Positions 36,920-44,725 of a stretch of 62,820 nt of DNA are shown here, in pieces. The DNA is from Acidimicrobiia bacterium. GTDB taxonomy: Bacteria; Actinomycetota; Acidimicrobiia; Spongiisociales; JAHEDJ01. Numbering within the stretch: the stretch's first letter is position 1; each line of letters starts with the position of its first letter. The stretch covers positions 1 through 62,820 of the forward strand of contig JARGFH010000018.1 of NCBI GenBank assembly GCA_029210695.1, given 5' to 3'. The notes beneath the pieces were generated by a model, which saw only the letters and a program-made list of their open reading frames with translations, was not told where the DNA came from and did no database searches. Both the position numbers and the translations under genes were made by a program.

Positions 36920-37501
36920 TCACAGTTCAATGATGAGCGGGCTGCCCGGCGAGGATCTGGTCCGCAGCGCTTCGACTTGTTCGAGAAGGGAACCTGCCCG
37001 ATGAAACGGTCCCGGTTTGATGGAGACCAGCGTGAAGGCCGGATCCGTCGGAACCAGGCTCGCTCGCTCCGACTCCATTTGCAGGATCGCTCGCAGTCGC
37101 TCGAGGAGTACCTGATTTCCCTCGATCTTGAATTCCCGCAACACGGCCGCGAAGGTCGTGTGGTCGACGTGACCGACCCTGTCGACCTTGCGCAAGGCGG
37201 CCTCCAGCACGGCCTCCAGGTGCTGCTGGATGCCCTGGTGACGTTCGGCCGCGCTCGTGCTGATCGCCTGGAGGCCTGGAATCTCGACGGCGAGAATGGC
37301 GAAGGGGTCGTTGCGGCGAGTCAACCAGTCCAGGGCATCCTGGATGGCGTCGATCACGCCGTTGCGGTTGAGCGTTCCTGTGCTCGGGTCGATCGGTGAG
37401 AGCACGTCGAGCGCCAGGCGAAATTGCCGCAGCTCTTCCTCGCGCTCGGCAAGGAGCCCCTCGAGTTCGTTCGGGTCGCGAATCGGCGGCTGTGGTTCCA
37501 T
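36920..37501 (-). CDS. Degenerate GGDEF-domain protein
   Basis: 193 aa. A short coiled N-terminus is followed by a GGDEF-like fold: DPSTGTLNRNGVIDAIQDAL (usual DxLTGLxNR start), FAILAVEIPG, and VGHVDHTTFAAVL where the GGDEF signature should be. The signature is VDHTTF, so diguanylate cyclase activity is not expected. It could be a c-di-GMP or GTP sensor, or a structural regulator. It is divergent from the FlgL-like gene. Confidence 0.65.
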   Translation of the reverse strand: MEPQPPIRDPNELEGLLAEREEELRQFRLALDVLSPIDPSTGTLNRNGVIDAIQDALDWLTRRNDPFAILAVEIPGLQAISTSAAERHQGIQQHLEAVLEAALRKVDRVGHVDHTTFAAVLREFKIEGNQVLLERLRAILQMESERASLVPTDPAFTLVSIKPGPFHRAGSLLEQVEALRTRSSPGSPLIIEL

Positions 37502-37655
37502 CCGTAATGATGAGGATAGTGGTGACTGGGGGGGCCCGGTCCGCTTATCGGTTGCACGGGACGGCCGACCGGGAAAGACGTGCCGGCCGAGTTGCGCAGA
37601 GTGACCCCGATATGCCGCCGGTTGGGACCAGTAGTCGACGTCCGGTGAGTTGGAT

Positions 37656-38453
37656 ATGAAGGTTCTACGGGAGATCCAGGCCTATTGCACACGGCACGGA
37701 CTCGACGGGCGCATCAATTCGGTAGATGATCTCGATTGGGGGATCGAATCCGATGGAGCAGGGTGGCGGGACGGGTGCACTCGAGCCAACCCGGGGCACA
37801 GCCTCCATGATGAGGTCAGCGGTTGGATACAGGAAGGGAATGATTCGGGAGAGGGACTGGCCTGGATCGAACTCGCCGATCTCCGGCTACGGGTCCTGGT
37901 AGAAGAACTCCAACGGGCGCGGCATCTGGCGACTCGCCTGCAAGGCGTGCTCGACGAGGATCAGCGGACCGCCGCCCGGCAAGAGATCAGCGTTCTAGCC
38001 GAGTCACTTCGAGAGGCGACCACCACGAGCATCGGCGGTGGGCCTGGGTCCCGGTCCGGCGCTGCTTGGGTCTACTGCAGCGGTTCGGGTCGTGTGGTCC
38101 GCAGGACGACGGCCAAAGAGCCGGTCGGCGATGACCTCCCCGATTGTCCCGACCCGGTCCGCCTCCTCGAAGGTCTCATCGATGCGCCGGAAGCCGTCGG
38201 TGCCTTTGAGCGATGCATCGACGAAGTGGGCAGGAGTTTTGCCGGGCTCTCGGATGCCCGCAGGCGTTTGATGGTCAGTCTCTCACGCAGCGTGATCGAG
38301 CAAAGCAAGATCCAATCGCGCTTGCCCGGATTCGACCACGCCTACGCGTCTGCGGTAATCGGTGAACTCCAGACGCAGACGGTCGTCTATCAGGTGACTC
38401 TCGAGGTGCTGTCAAGAGTACTTCAGCCGTCGTTGGTCGATTTTCTCCGCTAG
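37656..38453 (+). CDS. Divergent FlgL/flagellin-like protein
   Basis: 265 aa. The C-terminus VVYQVTLEVLSRVLQPSLVDFLR closely resembles the end of hook-filament junction protein FlgL. Residues 68-120 (LAWIELADLRLRVLVEELQR, then EDQRTAARQEISVLAESL) resemble the N-terminal D1 helices of flagellin-family proteins, and GRINSVDD near residue 18 recalls the SGKRINxPSDDP loop. The first D0 helix is shortened and unlike FlgL, and four cysteines are unusual for this family. A FlgN-like chaperone gene lies next door. ATG 37656 is preferred to TTG 37650. The assignment is from pattern reading; a profile search is needed. Confidence 0.55.
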   Translation: MKVLREIQAYCTRHGLDGRINSVDDLDWGIESDGAGWRDGCTRANPGHSLHDEVSGWIQEGNDSGEGLAWIELADLRLRVLVEELQRARHLATRLQGVLDEDQRTAARQEISVLAESLREATTTSIGGGPGSRSGAAWVYCSGSGRVVRRTTAKEPVGDDLPDCPDPVRLLEGLIDAPEAVGAFERCIDEVGRSFAGLSDARRRLMVSLSRSVIEQSKIQSRLPGFDHAYASAVIGELQTQTVVYQVTLEVLSRVLQPSLVDFLR

Positions 38454-38556
38454 ACCGGTTTGTGGTACATCGAAAGCGACGGTTCTCGTTGTCGATTACG
38501 GCTTCACCGTGGCGGGATCGGCATGCACGATGAGGGCCCGACCTTTTTCCCGGCTC

Positions 38557-39009
38557 TCACCCATCCAGGGGAGTGCCTGCGAGTCGCTCGATGCCGAGTT
38601 GCGCAGCCTCCAACCGTTCACGGGTTGACTGCTCGAGCGATGGCCTGAGCGAATCGATCTCATTCGTCAGAGCTACGAGTTCATCGAGGCGTTGTCCGAG
38701 AGCCTGTGCGTGATCGGGGTGGCCCCGGCTGATGATCGTGCGTAGGGAGAGGTCGTAGTCGTTTATGTGCCATTCCTCGGCGATTCCCGCAACAATCAGC
38801 GCACGCATCATCTCGGTGGTACCGAGCTGGTCTTCGAGGTTCGAGACCTGCCTGGCCGCGGAAGCCAGAGAGCGATCGGGGTGTGACAGGACCAGTTCAC
38901 CGACTTGGCGGAGTCGGGCCAAGAGGCTTTCGAGGATATCGCGTTCCCTACGCAGGATCTCCAGGAGCGGCTCGACCCCGGGTTGCAGCATGAGCATCAG
39001 TTCGTTCAC
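38557..39009 (-). CDS. FlgN-like export-chaperone protein
   Basis: 150 aa, almost entirely alpha-helical. The N-terminal LLEILRRERDILESLLARLRQ, then LSHPDRSLASAARQVSNLED and LSLRTIISRG, match the long antiparallel helices of FlgN, the chaperone that binds the C-termini of FlgK and FlgL. It stands between a FlgL-like gene and a FliA-type sigma gene, which supports the call. No motif makes it certain. Confidence 0.5.
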   Translation of the reverse strand: MNELMLMLQPGVEPLLEILRRERDILESLLARLRQVGELVLSHPDRSLASAARQVSNLEDQLGTTEMMRALIVAGIAEEWHINDYDLSLRTIISRGHPDHAQALGQRLDELVALTNEIDSLRPSLEQSTRERLEAAQLGIERLAGTPLDG

Positions 39010-39140
39010 CTGAGGCCTCCATCGAATCTAGGCCGGCGCGGTTTCCTGCATTTGGCCTGTCGGCGGGCCGGCCGCCTGTTCAAGCTCCGGAGTAATAGCT
39101 CGCCTTTTCGCCTCGAAATCGGAATGTGACTAAACGCGAA

Positions 39141-39172
39141 TAGCACTCAAGAACCCTGCATCCGGGTGCCGA
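39141..39172 (+). promoter_or_regulatory. Candidate FliA (sigma-28)-type promoter before fliA-like gene
   Basis: An ACTCAAG block near 39145 is followed at roughly normal spacing by GCCGATGA (39166-39173), close to the flagellar -10 GCCGATAA. A TGACTAG...CTAGTTAC near-palindrome overlaps its downstream side (39171-39208). This would allow autoregulation of the sigma gene. The spacing is slightly long. Confidence 0.4.
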
Positions 39173-39238
39173 TGACTAGAAAGTAGCTACAACAAAGAAC
39201 TAGTTACACACCAGGGACAACCGGACAAGGACAAGATC

Positions 39239-40075
39239 ATGGCCTATTCGGACCGGAATCAGCTTGCCACCGATCACCTCGAGCTCGTGGGTCACATCGT
39301 CGCAGAAGTATCGGTTCGCTATCCGCGTCACGTCGATCGCAACGAGTTGTGGAACGCCGGGGCACTCGGCCTTGTCGAAGCCTCCCGACGATTCAATGAG
39401 GATGCCGGCATTCCGTTTGCCCGATACGCCGCTATCCGGATTCGCGGAGCCATCATCGATTCCACCCGGACGCGCGACTGGGCGACGCGGTCGGTGCGGC
39501 GCAACCTCCGTGAGATCCAGCAGGCGACCTCGGATTTCGAAGAGCACACCGGCCGCCGCCCCAGCGACGATGACCTGGCCACGACGCTCGGCATCACCAC
39601 CATGGAGCTCTCCGCCCAGAAAGCCCAGGAGGGCCACAGCACCCTCCTGCATCTCGATCAGGAAGATTCCGATGAGTCGCCCTTGCGGGATCAGGTCGCC
39701 GAGCAGCGCTCACAGGCTCTCCCGGAGCAGGCGCTCGAGCAACGTGAGCTGTTCGGTACCCTCAAGACGGCAATCGAGCTTCTTCCATCGACGCAAGCAG
39801 AGGTTGTCACTCGCTACTACCTGCAGGGAGAATCCCTTCAGGACATTGCAGACGATCTGAAGGTCACCGAGGCCAGGGTTTCACAGATCCGGGCCGAGGC
39901 GCTGGCTGCCATCCGGGCATACTTTTCGACTCTCTACGAGGGTCTTCCGGAAGTTGCGGCCGCGACACCCGGCAGGCGGGCGCGAGCGTCATACCTGTCG
40001 GTCATGTCGGAGAACACCACGTGGCGCACACGCCTGGATGGCGGTCGCCGCCCGGATAACACGCTCGCAGTCTGA
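39239..40075 (+). CDS. RNA polymerase sigma factor of the FliA/WhiG family
   Basis: 278 aa with sigma regions 2, 3 and 4. Region 2: VDRNELWNAGALGLVEASRR, FARYAAIRIRGAIIDSTR; then DWATRSVRRNLREIQQATSDF; region 3: RRPSDDDLATTLGITTMEL; region 4: LLPSTQAEVVTRYYLQGESLQDIADDLKVTEARVSQIRAEALAAIR. This is the group of motility (FliA) and sporulation (WhiG) sigmas. Neighbours resemble flagellar export genes, so FliA is the better guess. The last 45 residues are a basic, divergent tail. Confidence 0.85.
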   Translation: MAYSDRNQLATDHLELVGHIVAEVSVRYPRHVDRNELWNAGALGLVEASRRFNEDAGIPFARYAAIRIRGAIIDSTRTRDWATRSVRRNLREIQQATSDFEEHTGRRPSDDDLATTLGITTMELSAQKAQEGHSTLLHLDQEDSDESPLRDQVAEQRSQALPEQALEQRELFGTLKTAIELLPSTQAEVVTRYYLQGESLQDIADDLKVTEARVSQIRAEALAAIRAYFSTLYEGLPEVAAATPGRRARASYLSVMSENTTWRTRLDGGRRPDNTLAV

Positions 40076-40172
40076 GGCAAAAGCTTCCGTTTCGCTCCAC
40101 GCAGATGACGGCCCCGGCTCGTGGCACCTGCCAAATCCCCCGACGATCAGCCGAATCTGATCTGGTGATCAG

Positions 40173-41645
40173 TTACGTATGGTCCGAGCCTTTCGTCGTC
40201 CGCAGATCGTCCGCAGTGAGATCGATCACCGCAGGCCGGGTGGACTCGACCGAAGGAGTGAAGCCGCGGCGATCCAGGCTTCCCCACGTGTGGTCGCCGC
40301 GCAACGCCGAGACTATGCCCTTGATGCGCCACCACGTTGACAGCTGCCGGTATCCGAAATTCTCGATCAGCGCCACCACGATCATTCGCCCCAAGTCGGC
40401 CGGTCTCGTGTACCGGCGAAACGACAACTCCTCCAGGGCCACCGCTGCTACCGACAGCGCAACGCCGGCAGCCACCGCCAGCGCTAGGAAAGCCAGCACA
40501 TATTGCAGAGGGGCATTTCCGGTGACCGCAGCCCACAGGAAGAACGCAAATCCGACGGCTTCGATGATCGGCCCGATGACTTCAAAGATCGTGTAGTAGG
40601 TGAATCCGATCAGACCGGGCGGACCGTAGCGCGGGTTGCCGAACATCCGCCGGTGGCGCCAGAGGGTCTGCACCAGACCCCGCTGCCACCGGTCACGCTG
40701 CCGGCCGAGGCTCTTGAGGTCTTCCGGGGCTTCCGTCCAGGCAACCGGGTCCGGCACGAAGTTGATCCGGTACTTGATCTCTTTCTCCCGGCAATATCGA
40801 TGCAGGCGGACGACGAGTTCCATGTCTTCTCCGACTGTGTCGGTGGAGAACCCGCCGACCTGCGCAACGATCGCCCGCTTGAACACACCGAATGCCCCGG
40901 AGATGATGAGGGTCGATCGCAGCACATCCCAGCCGACCCGGGTGGCGAGGAAGGCACGGAGGTATTCGATGACCTGAAAGCGGGCTACCAAGTTCGTCGG
41001 TAGCAACACCTGGCGAACGATGCCACCCTCGACGATGCAGCCGTTGGCGATGCGAACGATTCCTCCCGCCGCGATTGTCGTCCGGTCCTCGAGAAACGGG
41101 CGAACGAGGCGGGGCAGTGCCTCCGGTTCGAGCAGCGTGTCGGCGTCCATCGCGCAGAACAATGGAGTCCGGGCGTGGTTGAGGCCGGCGTTCAGGCTGT
41201 CGGCCTTGCCCCCGTTTTCTTTGTCGATTACCCACAGGTTCGGATGGCGGCCCGCCCGGTATACCGCCCGCACCGGAGCAGTTGAGAGCGACGAACTCGG
41301 GGTGCGTTCCGCCGTTTCCAGCTCGAAGGCCTCTATCAGGTGATCGAGTGTGCGGTCCGTTGAGCCGTCGTTCACGACGATGATCTCGTAGTCCGAATAC
41401 TGCAGGGTGAGTAGTGATCGGACCGACTCGACGATGCCGGCGACCTCATTGAACGCTGGCATGACCAGGGTGATCGGCATTCCCCCGGCTGCGTTGACGA
41501 GATCGCTGATGTGGAGTGACTCGAGGCGCCCGACGTATTTCTTGAGATGGAGGAAGGCCAGAATGCTCGTGGTCATGTAGATGACATTGAGAGCCAGGAA
41601 ATAGGCGAGGATCACTACGCTGACGACGGTGATCGCAGTGGTCAT
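40173..41645 (-). CDS. Processive family 2 glycosyltransferase (membrane polysaccharide synthase)
   Basis: 490 aa. One N-terminal helix, a GT2 domain with DGSTD (93-97), DADT (167-170), GED (Asp274) and QRDRW (316-320), the D,D,D,QxxRW set of processive synthases such as hyaluronan synthase and PgaC. Then come three or more C-terminal helices. It would polymerise and export a polysaccharide from a UDP-sugar. It is coupled by ATGA overlap to a HEAT-repeat protein and follows a response regulator in one operon. There is no PilZ domain. Confidence 0.88.
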   Translation of the reverse strand: MTTAITVVSVVILAYFLALNVIYMTTSILAFLHLKKYVGRLESLHISDLVNAAGGMPITLVMPAFNEVAGIVESVRSLLTLQYSDYEIIVVNDGSTDRTLDHLIEAFELETAERTPSSSLSTAPVRAVYRAGRHPNLWVIDKENGGKADSLNAGLNHARTPLFCAMDADTLLEPEALPRLVRPFLEDRTTIAAGGIVRIANGCIVEGGIVRQVLLPTNLVARFQVIEYLRAFLATRVGWDVLRSTLIISGAFGVFKRAIVAQVGGFSTDTVGEDMELVVRLHRYCREKEIKYRINFVPDPVAWTEAPEDLKSLGRQRDRWQRGLVQTLWRHRRMFGNPRYGPPGLIGFTYYTIFEVIGPIIEAVGFAFFLWAAVTGNAPLQYVLAFLALAVAAGVALSVAAVALEELSFRRYTRPADLGRMIVVALIENFGYRQLSTWWRIKGIVSALRGDHTWGSLDRRGFTPSVESTRPAVIDLTADDLRTTKGSDHT

Positions 41646-42709
41646 GCGACCTTCTCCATGATCGCTTCTCGGGCCAGCGCCGCCATTGGGTGGCCGCTTT
41701 CCACCATGGCCTCGAGCCGCGCCGCGCCACCCGCCTCCACCATGGCTTGGGCCGAGTTGATGGCGACCCAGGGTTCGGGGTCTGCCATTCCTCGCTCGAG
41801 CAGCTCGAGGTCGACCGCTTCGCCGACGGTCCCCAGCACCCGCAAGGCCAGGGCTCGCAGCACGAAGTCCCTGCTGGTCGCGCAGCTCCTGGCGATCGGC
41901 AGGTGCTCCGGTCCGCCCACCGCTCTGAGCAGACGTAGTGAAGCCGCTGCGAGTTCCCGGTCGGGAGTTCCGTTGAGGATCCCGGCTGCAACGTCGGCGG
42001 CGGCGGGGTCGGTGAGGAGGCTGAGGGCGTCTGCGGCAACGGCCCGATCGAGGGGGTCACGGTTGCTCCGCAGGTACGACCGGAGTGCCGGAGCCACCTC
42101 GGACCCCATGGAGGCCAGCATGCTGGAGAGGAAGCGGCTGTTCCACCTGGCATAGCGGTGGAGATTGAAGAGGACGTCGTCGATGTACGCCGGCTGGCGC
42201 GATGCTGAGAGCGTCCGTGCCGCCACCATCGAAACGAGCGCTGAGGGATCATCGAGTGCCCCGGCGACTATCGGGCCGTATTGCGCCATACCGAGGGTCG
42301 CCAGCGTTTGCACGGCGAAGGCGCGCCGCTCAGGGTTCCGGGCCTTGAGGTCTCTCACGATCATCGGCAGGTGTGGTGTGGCGAGGTCGACGACCACCCG
42401 GCGGTCGCCGCCGGACAGGAGGCGGGCATAGCGGACGAGGAACTTCAGGAAGTGTCTCCTCGAGCGCGATGTGACGGTGGCGTGAAGCCGGGAGGCGGGG
42501 ATGGATCCGTCGATGACGTCGAGGAGCAAGGGCTCCCAGCTCGCCTCGTAGGAGTTGTAGCGGCGAGCACGAAGCACGTTGCGGATCCGCATTGAGAAGG
42601 CCACTCCGGCCAGATACAAGACGACTGCGACGATGGCGAGCGTCGACCAGAGCACGACGGTGATCAATGAACCCGTCGCCCACGCTGGAGAGGTTCCGCC
42701 GGACCACAT
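41642..42709 (-). CDS. Membrane-anchored HEAT-repeat protein
   Basis: 355 aa. One N-terminal membrane helix (residues about 15-40) is followed by a basic segment and helical repeats of HEAT type (NPERRAFAVQTLATLGM, DPSALVSMVAARTLSAS, PLDRAVAADALSLLTDPAA, SRDFVLRALALRVLGTVG, DPEPWVAINSAQAMVEAGG). HEAT solenoids are protein-binding scaffolds. It sits between a GGDEF-REC regulator and a glycosyltransferase, and likely couples the signal to the synthase (inference). Confidence 0.8.
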   Translation of the reverse strand: MWSGGTSPAWATGSLITVVLWSTLAIVAVVLYLAGVAFSMRIRNVLRARRYNSYEASWEPLLLDVIDGSIPASRLHATVTSRSRRHFLKFLVRYARLLSGGDRRVVVDLATPHLPMIVRDLKARNPERRAFAVQTLATLGMAQYGPIVAGALDDPSALVSMVAARTLSASRQPAYIDDVLFNLHRYARWNSRFLSSMLASMGSEVAPALRSYLRSNRDPLDRAVAADALSLLTDPAAADVAAGILNGTPDRELAAASLRLLRAVGGPEHLPIARSCATSRDFVLRALALRVLGTVGEAVDLELLERGMADPEPWVAINSAQAMVEAGGAARLEAMVESGHPMAALAREAIMEKVA

Positions 42710-42721
42710 GACGGTCGGCGG

Positions 42722-43549
42722 CTACTTCGCCAGCAGACGCTGGACCCGGAGGGCGAGCTCTGTCGGCGAGAACGGCTTCAGGATGTAGTCATCGGCTCCG
42801 CCGGACAGTGCGCGTACAACGTCCTGTTCGGCGCCCATCCCGGTGAGCATTACCACGGGAGTTGAGGCCAAATTCGGGTCTTCCTTGAATCGGCCAAGGA
42901 GTTCGAAACCGTCCATTCGTGGCATCTTCACGTCGAATATCGCCAGGGCATAGGGTTGGGGACCGGCTGCCTGAGCAGCTTCGAGCGCGCTCTGGCCATC
43001 CGGATGATGCACGACCACATAGCCCTCCCGTTGAAGGCGATGGATGATCAGCCGGTCGGTGAGGGTGTCGTCTTCGGCGAGAAGGATCGTGCGCCGGTCA
43101 CCGGTTGCTTCAGTTTGGATCTGCACTCTGTCACCTCCTTTCGCCTGTGCATCCGATCGAAGCAGTCTTGCAGTATCGAGGGTCAGTTGGCGGTCATCGT
43201 TCCTGGTGTCGGCGGCGAGACCCGCGGAGAAGCTGACCATCACGTCCGGGATATCTGCCCGGTTCCTGACCCGAAGGCGCGCCGTTTCCAGGAAACCGGC
43301 TGCTTCAGTCCGGTCGAGGTCGGGGAAAACGCAGACGATTTCGTCACCTACGCCGGGGAAACGTGTGGCCGGGGGTTCGAGGTGGGCGGCCAGCAATTCG
43401 TCCACCAGTTGCGCGGCAGTTTCTGTGTCGACCGGGGTCGCCGAGCCTTCCGAGGGGAACGCTTCGGGCATGATCGACGCTACCGTCATCAGCTGCCGCT
43501 TCGATGAGTGCGGGCGCGGCGGCTCGGTGCGGGCGCGGTCGTCGATCAC
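42722..43549 (-). CDS. Hybrid regulator: degenerate GGDEF-like domain plus C-terminal receiver
   Basis: 275 aa. Residues about 45-145 look like the second half of a GGDEF domain: VGDEIVCVFPD in place of GGDEF, VSFSAGLA, then TLDTARLLRSDAQAKGGDRV. Residues 153-275 are a complete receiver: acidic pair in LLAEDD, phosphoacceptor Asp206 in AIFDVKMPRMDG, Lys258 in YILKPFSP. The receiver is C-terminal, opposite to usual PleD-type order, and the cyclase part looks inactive or truncated. It is the first gene of the operon with HEAT and GT2. Confidence 0.78.
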   Translation of the reverse strand: MIDDRARTEPPRPHSSKRQLMTVASIMPEAFPSEGSATPVDTETAAQLVDELLAAHLEPPATRFPGVGDEIVCVFPDLDRTEAAGFLETARLRVRNRADIPDVMVSFSAGLAADTRNDDRQLTLDTARLLRSDAQAKGGDRVQIQTEATGDRRTILLAEDDTLTDRLIIHRLQREGYVVVHHPDGQSALEAAQAAGPQPYALAIFDVKMPRMDGFELLGRFKEDPNLASTPVVMLTGMGAEQDVVRALSGGADDYILKPFSPTELALRVQRLLAK

Positions 43550-43679
43550 GGGGCCGCCTCGCGCCCGATCGGGCCCGGAGTGCCCCTTCTGTTGGGGCTG
43601 ATCCGTTCAGTCGTGTGCGTGCGCATGATCGAGTCCGTCCGGTTGCGGTTGTGGACTCCTGTCGGCCGATCCCGCCGAT

Positions 43680-43693
43680 AGCTTATGGCTTAT
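43680..43693. repeat. Short heptad pair (AGCTTAT, GGCTTAT)
   Basis: Two 7-nt units in phase within the 174-nt gap upstream of the regulator operon and downstream of the polyprenyl synthase gene. The rest of this gap shows no gene. Low complexity alone could explain so short a match. Confidence 0.4.
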
Positions 43694-43723
43694 GGAGAAG
43701 AGGCGTTGGCCCGCGCCAAACGG

Positions 43724-44725
43724 CTAACCGGCCGATCGCCCCGCAGCCACCCGGTTGATGAGGTAGCCCCCGAGCGAGTTCAGGACGTCTTTCGCAGGTG
43801 AATCTGCCAGGTCGGCGATGGCGTTCCCGGCGACCTCTATCCGGCGGGACGCTTCATCGAGAGCGCTCTCCACGTATCCGCCTGCCCGCACGAGGTCAAT
43901 GACCTCCGAAACAGATTCCTGGGGATAAGGCCGGGGGCGGGCCAGCATCTCGCCGATCCGGCTTCCATCTGGACCTTGTAGCGCCGAGAGCACTGGCAGA
44001 GTGAACTTGCCCTCCGAAATGTCGGATCCGGCCGGCTTGCCGAGAAAATCGTCGGTGGCAACGAGATCCAGTGCGTCGTCACTGATCTGGAAAACGATGC
44101 CCAGCTCCCAGGCCCATCGGCTGAGGCGTTCCACATCGTCGGGAGACGCGTCCGCGGCCATGGCGCCGAGCCGGGCAGATGTGCGGATCAGGCTTGCCGT
44201 CTTTCCCTCGATCACCCGGAAATACTCGTCCGTGCCGTGGTGGATGTCCCAGTCGAGTTGGAGTTCCAGGGTCTGGCCTTCGACCAGTTCGGCGTAGGTC
44301 CTGGCCAGGATCTCGACCGCCCGCTGCCCCAGTGTGGCGGCCGCCACCTCAGATGCCCGCGCCATCAAGAAGTCGCCGGCCAGGATGGCAACGGTGTTGC
44401 CCCAGTTGGTGTTTGCGGAGTCTGTGCCGCGACGTGTGGTCGCTTCATCGATGACGTCGTCGTGATAGAGGCTGCCGACGTGGATGAGTTCGACGGCGAC
44501 GGCCGCGTCGATTGAGCGCTGATCGTCGGCCGGGCCAAACTCCGCGGCGAGTTGGGCCAGGAGGGGGCGGAAGCGCTTGCCACCGGCGATGAGAAGGTGC
44601 TGAGCCGCTTTGGTGAGGAACGCGTCACCCGATTGCGATACCTCGAGCAATCGCGTCTCGACGCGTTCGAGCCGCTGCCACACCGACGGCAGTGGAACGA
44701 GATCTTCGAGGGTTGGAGCGTCCAT
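43724..44725 (-). CDS. Polyprenyl diphosphate synthase (long-chain trans-prenyltransferase)
   Basis: 333 aa. Aspartate-rich motifs LYHDDVIDEA (FARM) and QISDDALDL (SARM), substrate segment GGKRFRPLL, and EGKTASLIRT. It makes the isoprenoid side chain of menaquinone or a carrier lipid from FPP/GGPP and IPP. The start ATG 44725 is preferred to longer frames. It is divergent from clpC across a 196-nt region. The MEP genes ispD/ispF at 59-60 kb would supply the precursors. Confidence 0.9.
   Translation of the reverse strand: MDAPTLEDLVPLPSVWQRLERVETRLLEVSQSGDAFLTKAAQHLLIAGGKRFRPLLAQLAAEFGPADDQRSIDAAVAVELIHVGSLYHDDVIDEATTRRGTDSANTNWGNTVAILAGDFLMARASEVAAATLGQRAVEILARTYAELVEGQTLELQLDWDIHHGTDEYFRVIEGKTASLIRTSARLGAMAADASPDDVERLSRWAWELGIVFQISDDALDLVATDDFLGKPAGSDISEGKFTLPVLSALQGPDGSRIGEMLARPRPYPQESVSEVIDLVRAGGYVESALDEASRRIEVAGNAIADLADSPAKDVLNSLGGYLINRVAAGRSAG

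Follow-up and report, generated by a model that had tools for sequence, protein, structure and literature searches.

A conserved trio of receiver, membrane HEAT-repeat protein and processive glycosyltransferase, a candidate phosphorylation-controlled polysaccharide synthase

Standard accounts of how processive family-2 glycosyltransferase (GT2) synthases are controlled centre on c-di-GMP, acting by way of PilZ, PgaD and PelD. Receiver proteins enter this field in Shewanella, where CheY3 is a chemotaxis regulator whose gene, to our knowledge, is not encoded with the synthase. A Shewanella study reports that CheY3-P binds MxdA and is required for biofilm (PMC7666153), and a second source describes PgaC as needing PgaD, with c-di-GMP acting on the PgaC-PgaD pair (PMC8461298). 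Here we analyze a gene trio in which a processive GT2 is instead accompanied by a HEAT-repeat protein and a receiver. The open-access PMC literature, a scope that leaves aside subscription papers and preprints, contained no description of a receiver-HEAT-GT2 system and no paper in which "HEAT repeat" occurs together with "PgaC". Control of polymer production by a phospho-receiver, a HEAT protein and a GT2 would be widespread and is apparently undescribed.

The trio lies in a stretch of 62,820 nucleotides from an Acidimicrobiia bacterium (contig JARGFH010000018.1), hereafter the window. Three genes follow one another on the minus strand: a regulator with a degenerate GGDEF-like half and a receiver (42722–43549, 275 aa, GTG start at 43549 and an alternative ATG start at residue 21), a HEAT-repeat protein with one N-terminal transmembrane helix (41642–42709, 355 aa), and a processive GT2 with N- and C-terminal membrane helices (40173–41645, 490 aa). 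A gap of 12 nt separates the regulator from the HEAT gene, and HEAT and GT2 share a 4-nt ATGA stop/start overlap (41642–41645, minus strand), in keeping with the three-gene operon proposed in the preliminary description. Of 131 loci with a HEAT-GT2 pair, 92 have a HEAT gene that ends in ATGA, GTGA or TTGA. The GC3 of the three genes (0.71–0.81) is consistent with coding DNA, and a promoter and terminator scan of 40000–44000 gave no candidates. Chance neighbourhood of the three genes was considered and ruled out, because the trio is conserved across genomes. No histidine kinase adjoins the trio within the window. The GT2 is flanked upstream by the HEAT gene (41642–42709) and downstream, about 100 bp from the end of the trio, by a FliA-type sigma factor gene (39239–40075, plus strand). 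A further degenerate GGDEF protein (36920–37501, minus strand; 21.5 bits, below the Pfam cut-off) is encoded near the FlgL-like, FlgN-like and FliA-type sigma genes (37650–40075), and two same-genus genomes also have GGDEF-like matches downstream of the trio. On an Erythrobacter plasmid (L187:1-2310) the module comes after fliO/fliP, and the flagellar neighbours there and in the window make a link to the motile-to-sessile transition possible.

We then characterized the synthase. It carries the full D,D,D,QxxRW set ascribed to it, namely D93 (NDGS), D167/D169 (DAD), D274 (GED, TED-like) and Q316-R-D-R-W320, with R319 as the arginine of the last motif, and these residues are invariant in a 14-sequence alignment save for the variable residue of QxxRW. 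Its best NCBIfam match is PgaC_IcaA (TIGR03937), whose cut-off of 422.3 bits lies far above the 135.7 bits obtained; it is 27% identical to E. coli PgaC, itself a far outgroup that scores 110 bits against 566–757 for the linked GT2s. A small two-helix gene of the PgaD/IcaD type was not found next to the window GT2. Because the score falls under the cut-off and the partner is different, we do not regard the enzyme as a PgaC. The GT2 may make and export a long polymer. It contains no PilZ domain, and the stated absence of PilZ extends from the locus to the whole genome, which gave 0 matches against 5 of 14 control genomes positive. The same genome has 40 HisKA kinases and five GGDEF domains over the cut-off.

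The C-terminal half of the regulator is an intact receiver, as had been described: Response_reg matches residues 155–269 (Pfam, 84.8 bits), all key residues are present within 153–275 (E159/D160, the phospho-acceptor D206, T236 and K258), and a structure search with the regulator returned Z about 23 for the receivers RR468 and PhoB. The N-terminal half received no GGDEF call from Pfam. A GGDEF profile built without the window protein and three related domains matched residues 68–121 with its C-terminal part (profile positions 80–137 of 152, 16.6 bits), and AlphaFold predicted a compact b-a-b-b-a-b-a-b domain at 21–144 with pLDDT mostly 78–93. This domain is shortened in its N-terminal part, its signature reads GVGDE (66–70) in departure from GG[DE]EF, and no RxxD precedes it, the sole RxxD standing at residue 116; the label of a dead GGDEF-like half is borne out. 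Receivers dominated the structure search, which therefore barely probed this half of the protein, and phage diguanylate cyclases at ranks 25–26 among viral models lend the GGDEF identity weak support.

The regulator varied more widely among relatives. In two relatives from the same genus the receiver stands alone (134 aa), without a GGDEF-like domain, and members of another family of the order have HPt-REC-REC or HPt-REC-GGDEF-REC proteins. Among 18 GGDEF domains that are linked to a receiver and encoded upstream of HEAT-GT2 in relatives, 9 keep GG[DE]EF and the other 9 have lost it. Since the domain is absent, intact or decayed among relatives, the cyclase has decayed repeatedly, and the window regulator is a trimmed, local remnant of a longer HPt-REC-GGDEF-REC phosphorelay protein, its GGDEF-like half lying outside the module core. 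The idea that a dead GGDEF forms the core switch was accordingly dropped, since relatives of the same genus lack the domain and other relatives have a canonical one. An active cyclase is absent from the window trio, as first claimed, but this does not generalize: with half of the 18 linked domains canonical, an active cyclase is part of some versions of the module, and c-di-GMP may act in those relatives. The receivers themselves are well kept, with the phospho-Asp in 96 of 99 receivers and the Lys in 99 of 99, and most have no output domain, DNA-binding or other.

The second gene encodes a membrane HEAT-repeat protein, again in line with the preliminary description, with HEAT_2 repeats (Pfam, 64.5 bits) and one N-terminal hydrophobic helix (residues 15–33). 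The first hydrophobic helix falls within the first 60 residues in 79 of 81 diverse HEAT relatives, and in 77 of these 79 it is followed by basic residues, which suggests that the HEAT solenoid is probably cytosolic. We used a relative, L146, in which HEAT and GT2 read as one ORF, to examine how the two proteins sit together; in a close cousin, whose HEAT protein is 86% identical, they are separate, which makes an indel a possible origin of the fusion. The AlphaFold model of this chain (81 unpaired rows) reached pLDDT 90.2 and, across its 935 residues, pTM 0.83; residues 422–453 form a disordered linker. From the pTM alone, taken over the two parts, we infer that HEAT and GT2 are confidently placed relative to each other in this model. 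In a structure search the GT2 fold of this model matched hyaluronan synthase (Z about 27) and BcsA (Z 22–25), the top match being a Pyrobaculum mannosyltransferase (6yv7, Z 30.0). Judged by first and last aligned residues, the BcsA rows start at model residues 1–3, within the HEAT membrane helix, and most hyaluronan synthase rows start at 459–465. The HEAT helix thus apparently occupies, in the model, the place where cellulose synthase has a membrane helix of its own. The co-folding of HEAT with GT2 that had been suggested gave joint placement in a single relative whose fusion is perhaps an indel. The linking role first given to the HEAT protein is upheld, and "scaffold" is probably too weak a word for it: it is the near-obligate partner of the GT2, predicted to pack on it and possibly lending it a membrane helix. 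Among the ORFs scanned there were no REC-HEAT or REC-GT2 fusions.

We next asked how widely the trio is conserved, using scan profiles built from the loci themselves, so that the counts rest on gene adjacency. Other genomes do keep the genes together, which is the opposite of the refuting outcome named in the preliminary description, a trio conserved in no other genome. In 73 of the 80 best named loci, chosen by GT2 match alone, a HEAT gene lies directly upstream on the same strand. Where at least 4.5 kb of upstream DNA was available (67 loci), HEAT was present in 63 and HEAT plus a receiver in 58, a few of these receivers sitting in hybrid kinases; a kinase was upstream in only 23 of the 67. 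Many relatives have added hybrid kinases and HPt domains, and diderm relatives have added a YaiO outer-membrane barrel, found within 4 kb in 44 of the 80 named loci. The seven HEAT misses comprised three loci without upstream DNA, three Nitrospira loci and L121, which was rejected as a HEAT-less locus because its HEAT gene adjoins divergently. Loci without REC include a Deinococcus plasmid, L082, L083, L096, L099 and L134. Going by record titles, the HEAT-bearing named loci come from 16 phyla of bacteria and, in two cases, from archaeal MAGs. Complete haloarchaeal plasmids carry genes annotated as response regulator, HEAT repeat domain-containing protein and glycosyltransferase family 2 protein, and the annotated entries for Haloarcula, Salinirubellus and Erythrobacter show RR, HEAT and GT2.

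Genome samples gave a similar picture. An even draw of 398 Pseudomonadota genomes, independent of the named-locus set, contained the GT2 in 14, with HEAT in 14/14, a same-strand receiver in 12/14 and YaiO in 13/14. In the window's own phylum the GT2 occurred in 60 of 396 genomes, and among the matches listed HEAT was upstream of at least 54 of 65 GT2 places; five misses were read, of which three had HEAT (one at a contig end), one was itself a contig end and one was a partial GT2 without HEAT. A HEAT search in the own class matched 30 of 198 genomes, and of 30 own-class loci read (selected by HEAT, window included), 29 had GT2 and 28 had REC, HEAT and GT2. In one own-phylum family HEAT at first seemed to occur without GT2, a reading discarded when a divergent GT2 was seen downstream in 5 of 6 regions (L195-L199), L200 having HEAT only. 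In L195-L199 HEAT is followed by this much more divergent GT2 (143–178 bits), with no receiver upstream, perhaps as a sister system. Among unusual synthases, a Gemmatimonadota locus (L109:5992-8127, plus strand) encodes a GT2 together with a weakly matching YaiO-like barrel (18.2 bits) in a single ORF, an odd arrangement in topology and perhaps an indel. Several own-phylum GT2s (L152:1471-4377, L153, L151, L162) have C-terminal extensions of several hundred residues, and the one extension tested, that of L152, gave no Pfam call.

The history of the three genes was explored with a quick tree of 86 GT2s and with pairwise distances. In this tree the window GT2 belongs to a group of 15 rows (support 100) that it shares with Gemmatimonadota, Neomarinimicrobiota and Rhodothermota. 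The same genome has a second, divergent REC-HEAT-GT2 trio (C35:1-3149; L037/L137) with a stand-alone receiver of 124 aa, and the GT2 of this copy belongs to a different clade, with other members of the order. That the window GT2 groups with other phyla and apart from the C35 copy suggests that the window trio was acquired by lateral transfer. The Nitrospira loci L101, L115 and L132 have GT2s of the same clade without HEAT or receiver, the YaiO gene being on the opposite strand; nested as they are inside the tree of linked GT2s, they look like cases of later HEAT loss. Across 67 trios the distances correlated at 0.468 for GT2-HEAT, 0.465 for HEAT-REC and 0.378 for GT2-REC, and HEAT-REC still at 0.352 after GT2 was removed, with significance taken from Mantel shuffles that ignore relatedness.

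Taken together, we find it fairly probable that the trio constitutes a polysaccharide synthase under two-component phosphorylation through a HEAT subunit, without PilZ. Conservation, co-inheritance, intact active-site and phospho-site residues and the HEAT-GT2 placement in a relative are computed; control by phosphorylation, its direction and the docking of REC on HEAT would be the steps that connect them. The phosphate would reach receiver D206 from a histidine kinase whose gene lies elsewhere in the genome, and the receiver would dock on the HEAT solenoid. The HEAT helix is predicted to pack against the synthase in the membrane and the cytosolic solenoid against the catalytic domain, so that HEAT could alter chain elongation or export and switch the synthase on or off, with no second messenger at this step. 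The GT2 would polymerise sugar at the inner membrane face and pass the chain out, and in diderm relatives a TPR/YaiO barrel would take the polymer across the outer membrane. The nesting of partners, with the GT2 nearly always accompanied by HEAT and less often by REC, suits an order REC to HEAT to GT2. In another account, HEAT is an assembly or stability factor, the receiver only co-regulates expression or serves another pathway, and phosphorylation stops short of the enzyme. HEAT-GT2 pairs without a receiver at some loci fit this account, yet most receivers carry no output domain, whether DNA-binding or of another kind, the receiver is the third most constant partner (58/67), and HEAT-REC divergence correlates beyond GT2; we consider it unlikely.

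Still less probable, in our estimate, is an essentially c-di-GMP-controlled system in which the GGDEF-like domain produces or perceives c-di-GMP for the synthase, in the manner of PelD and MxdA with theirs. It would account for the canonical signature in 9 of 18 upstream receiver-linked domains and for the five GGDEF domains in the own genome, and PelD senses c-di-GMP through a degenerate GGDEF (PMC8461298). However, the window regulator has lost both signature and RxxD site, two same-genus relatives lack the domain altogether while most relatives have a stand-alone receiver, and no PilZ match occurs in the own genome. The enzyme could also be a maker of a glycolipid or short oligosaccharide, with HEAT recruiting substrate or acceptor, and the single best structural row is indeed a mannosyltransferase (6yv7, Z 30.0). 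The QxxRW motif and the flanking membrane helices, features shared with hyaluronan and cellulose synthases, point instead to a polymerase, and the YaiO barrel and TPR adjoining in diderms (44/80 loci) suggest outer-membrane export, which leaves this reading very improbable.

We hold more tentatively that the trio defines a widespread synthase class, in at least 16 bacterial phyla and archaea, gated directly by phosphorylation, in which the receiver-docked HEAT protein lends the missing membrane helix. If true, this would constitute a post-translational route parallel to c-di-GMP/PilZ, of greater age or mobility than has been supposed, and the GGDEF domain would be an optional add-on that repeatedly decays. 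The module offers a testable alternative to c-di-GMP, a receiver acting on the enzyme via a repeat-protein subunit. It also provides a functional hypothesis for many adjoining genes labelled "response regulator", "HEAT repeat domain-containing protein" and "glycosyltransferase family 2", and would explain why YaiO barrels accompany such trios.

Each of the known systems resembles the module in part. PgaC-PgaD and IcaA-IcaD, the PNAG synthases, share with the window a membrane GT2 dependent on a membrane partner, but that partner is the small PgaD, where the window GT2 has HEAT and a receiver. BcsA has the GT2 fold and QxxRW, and matched the relative's model at Z 22–25; its control part is PilZ with c-di-GMP, whereas the module has HEAT and a receiver. 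PelD ties a degenerate GGDEF to polysaccharide control as the window regulator may do, but has the RxxD c-di-GMP site that the window regulator is missing, and its synthase differs (PMC8461298). The Shewanella CheY3/MxdA/MxdB system comes close in that the regulator of its GT2 machinery has a receiver protein as binding partner; unlike the module, it works through a c-di-GMP effector, MxdA, and the part of the source at hand mentions no HEAT protein for it (PMC7666153). CheY3-MxdA offers an earlier example of a receiver that acts on GT2 machinery.
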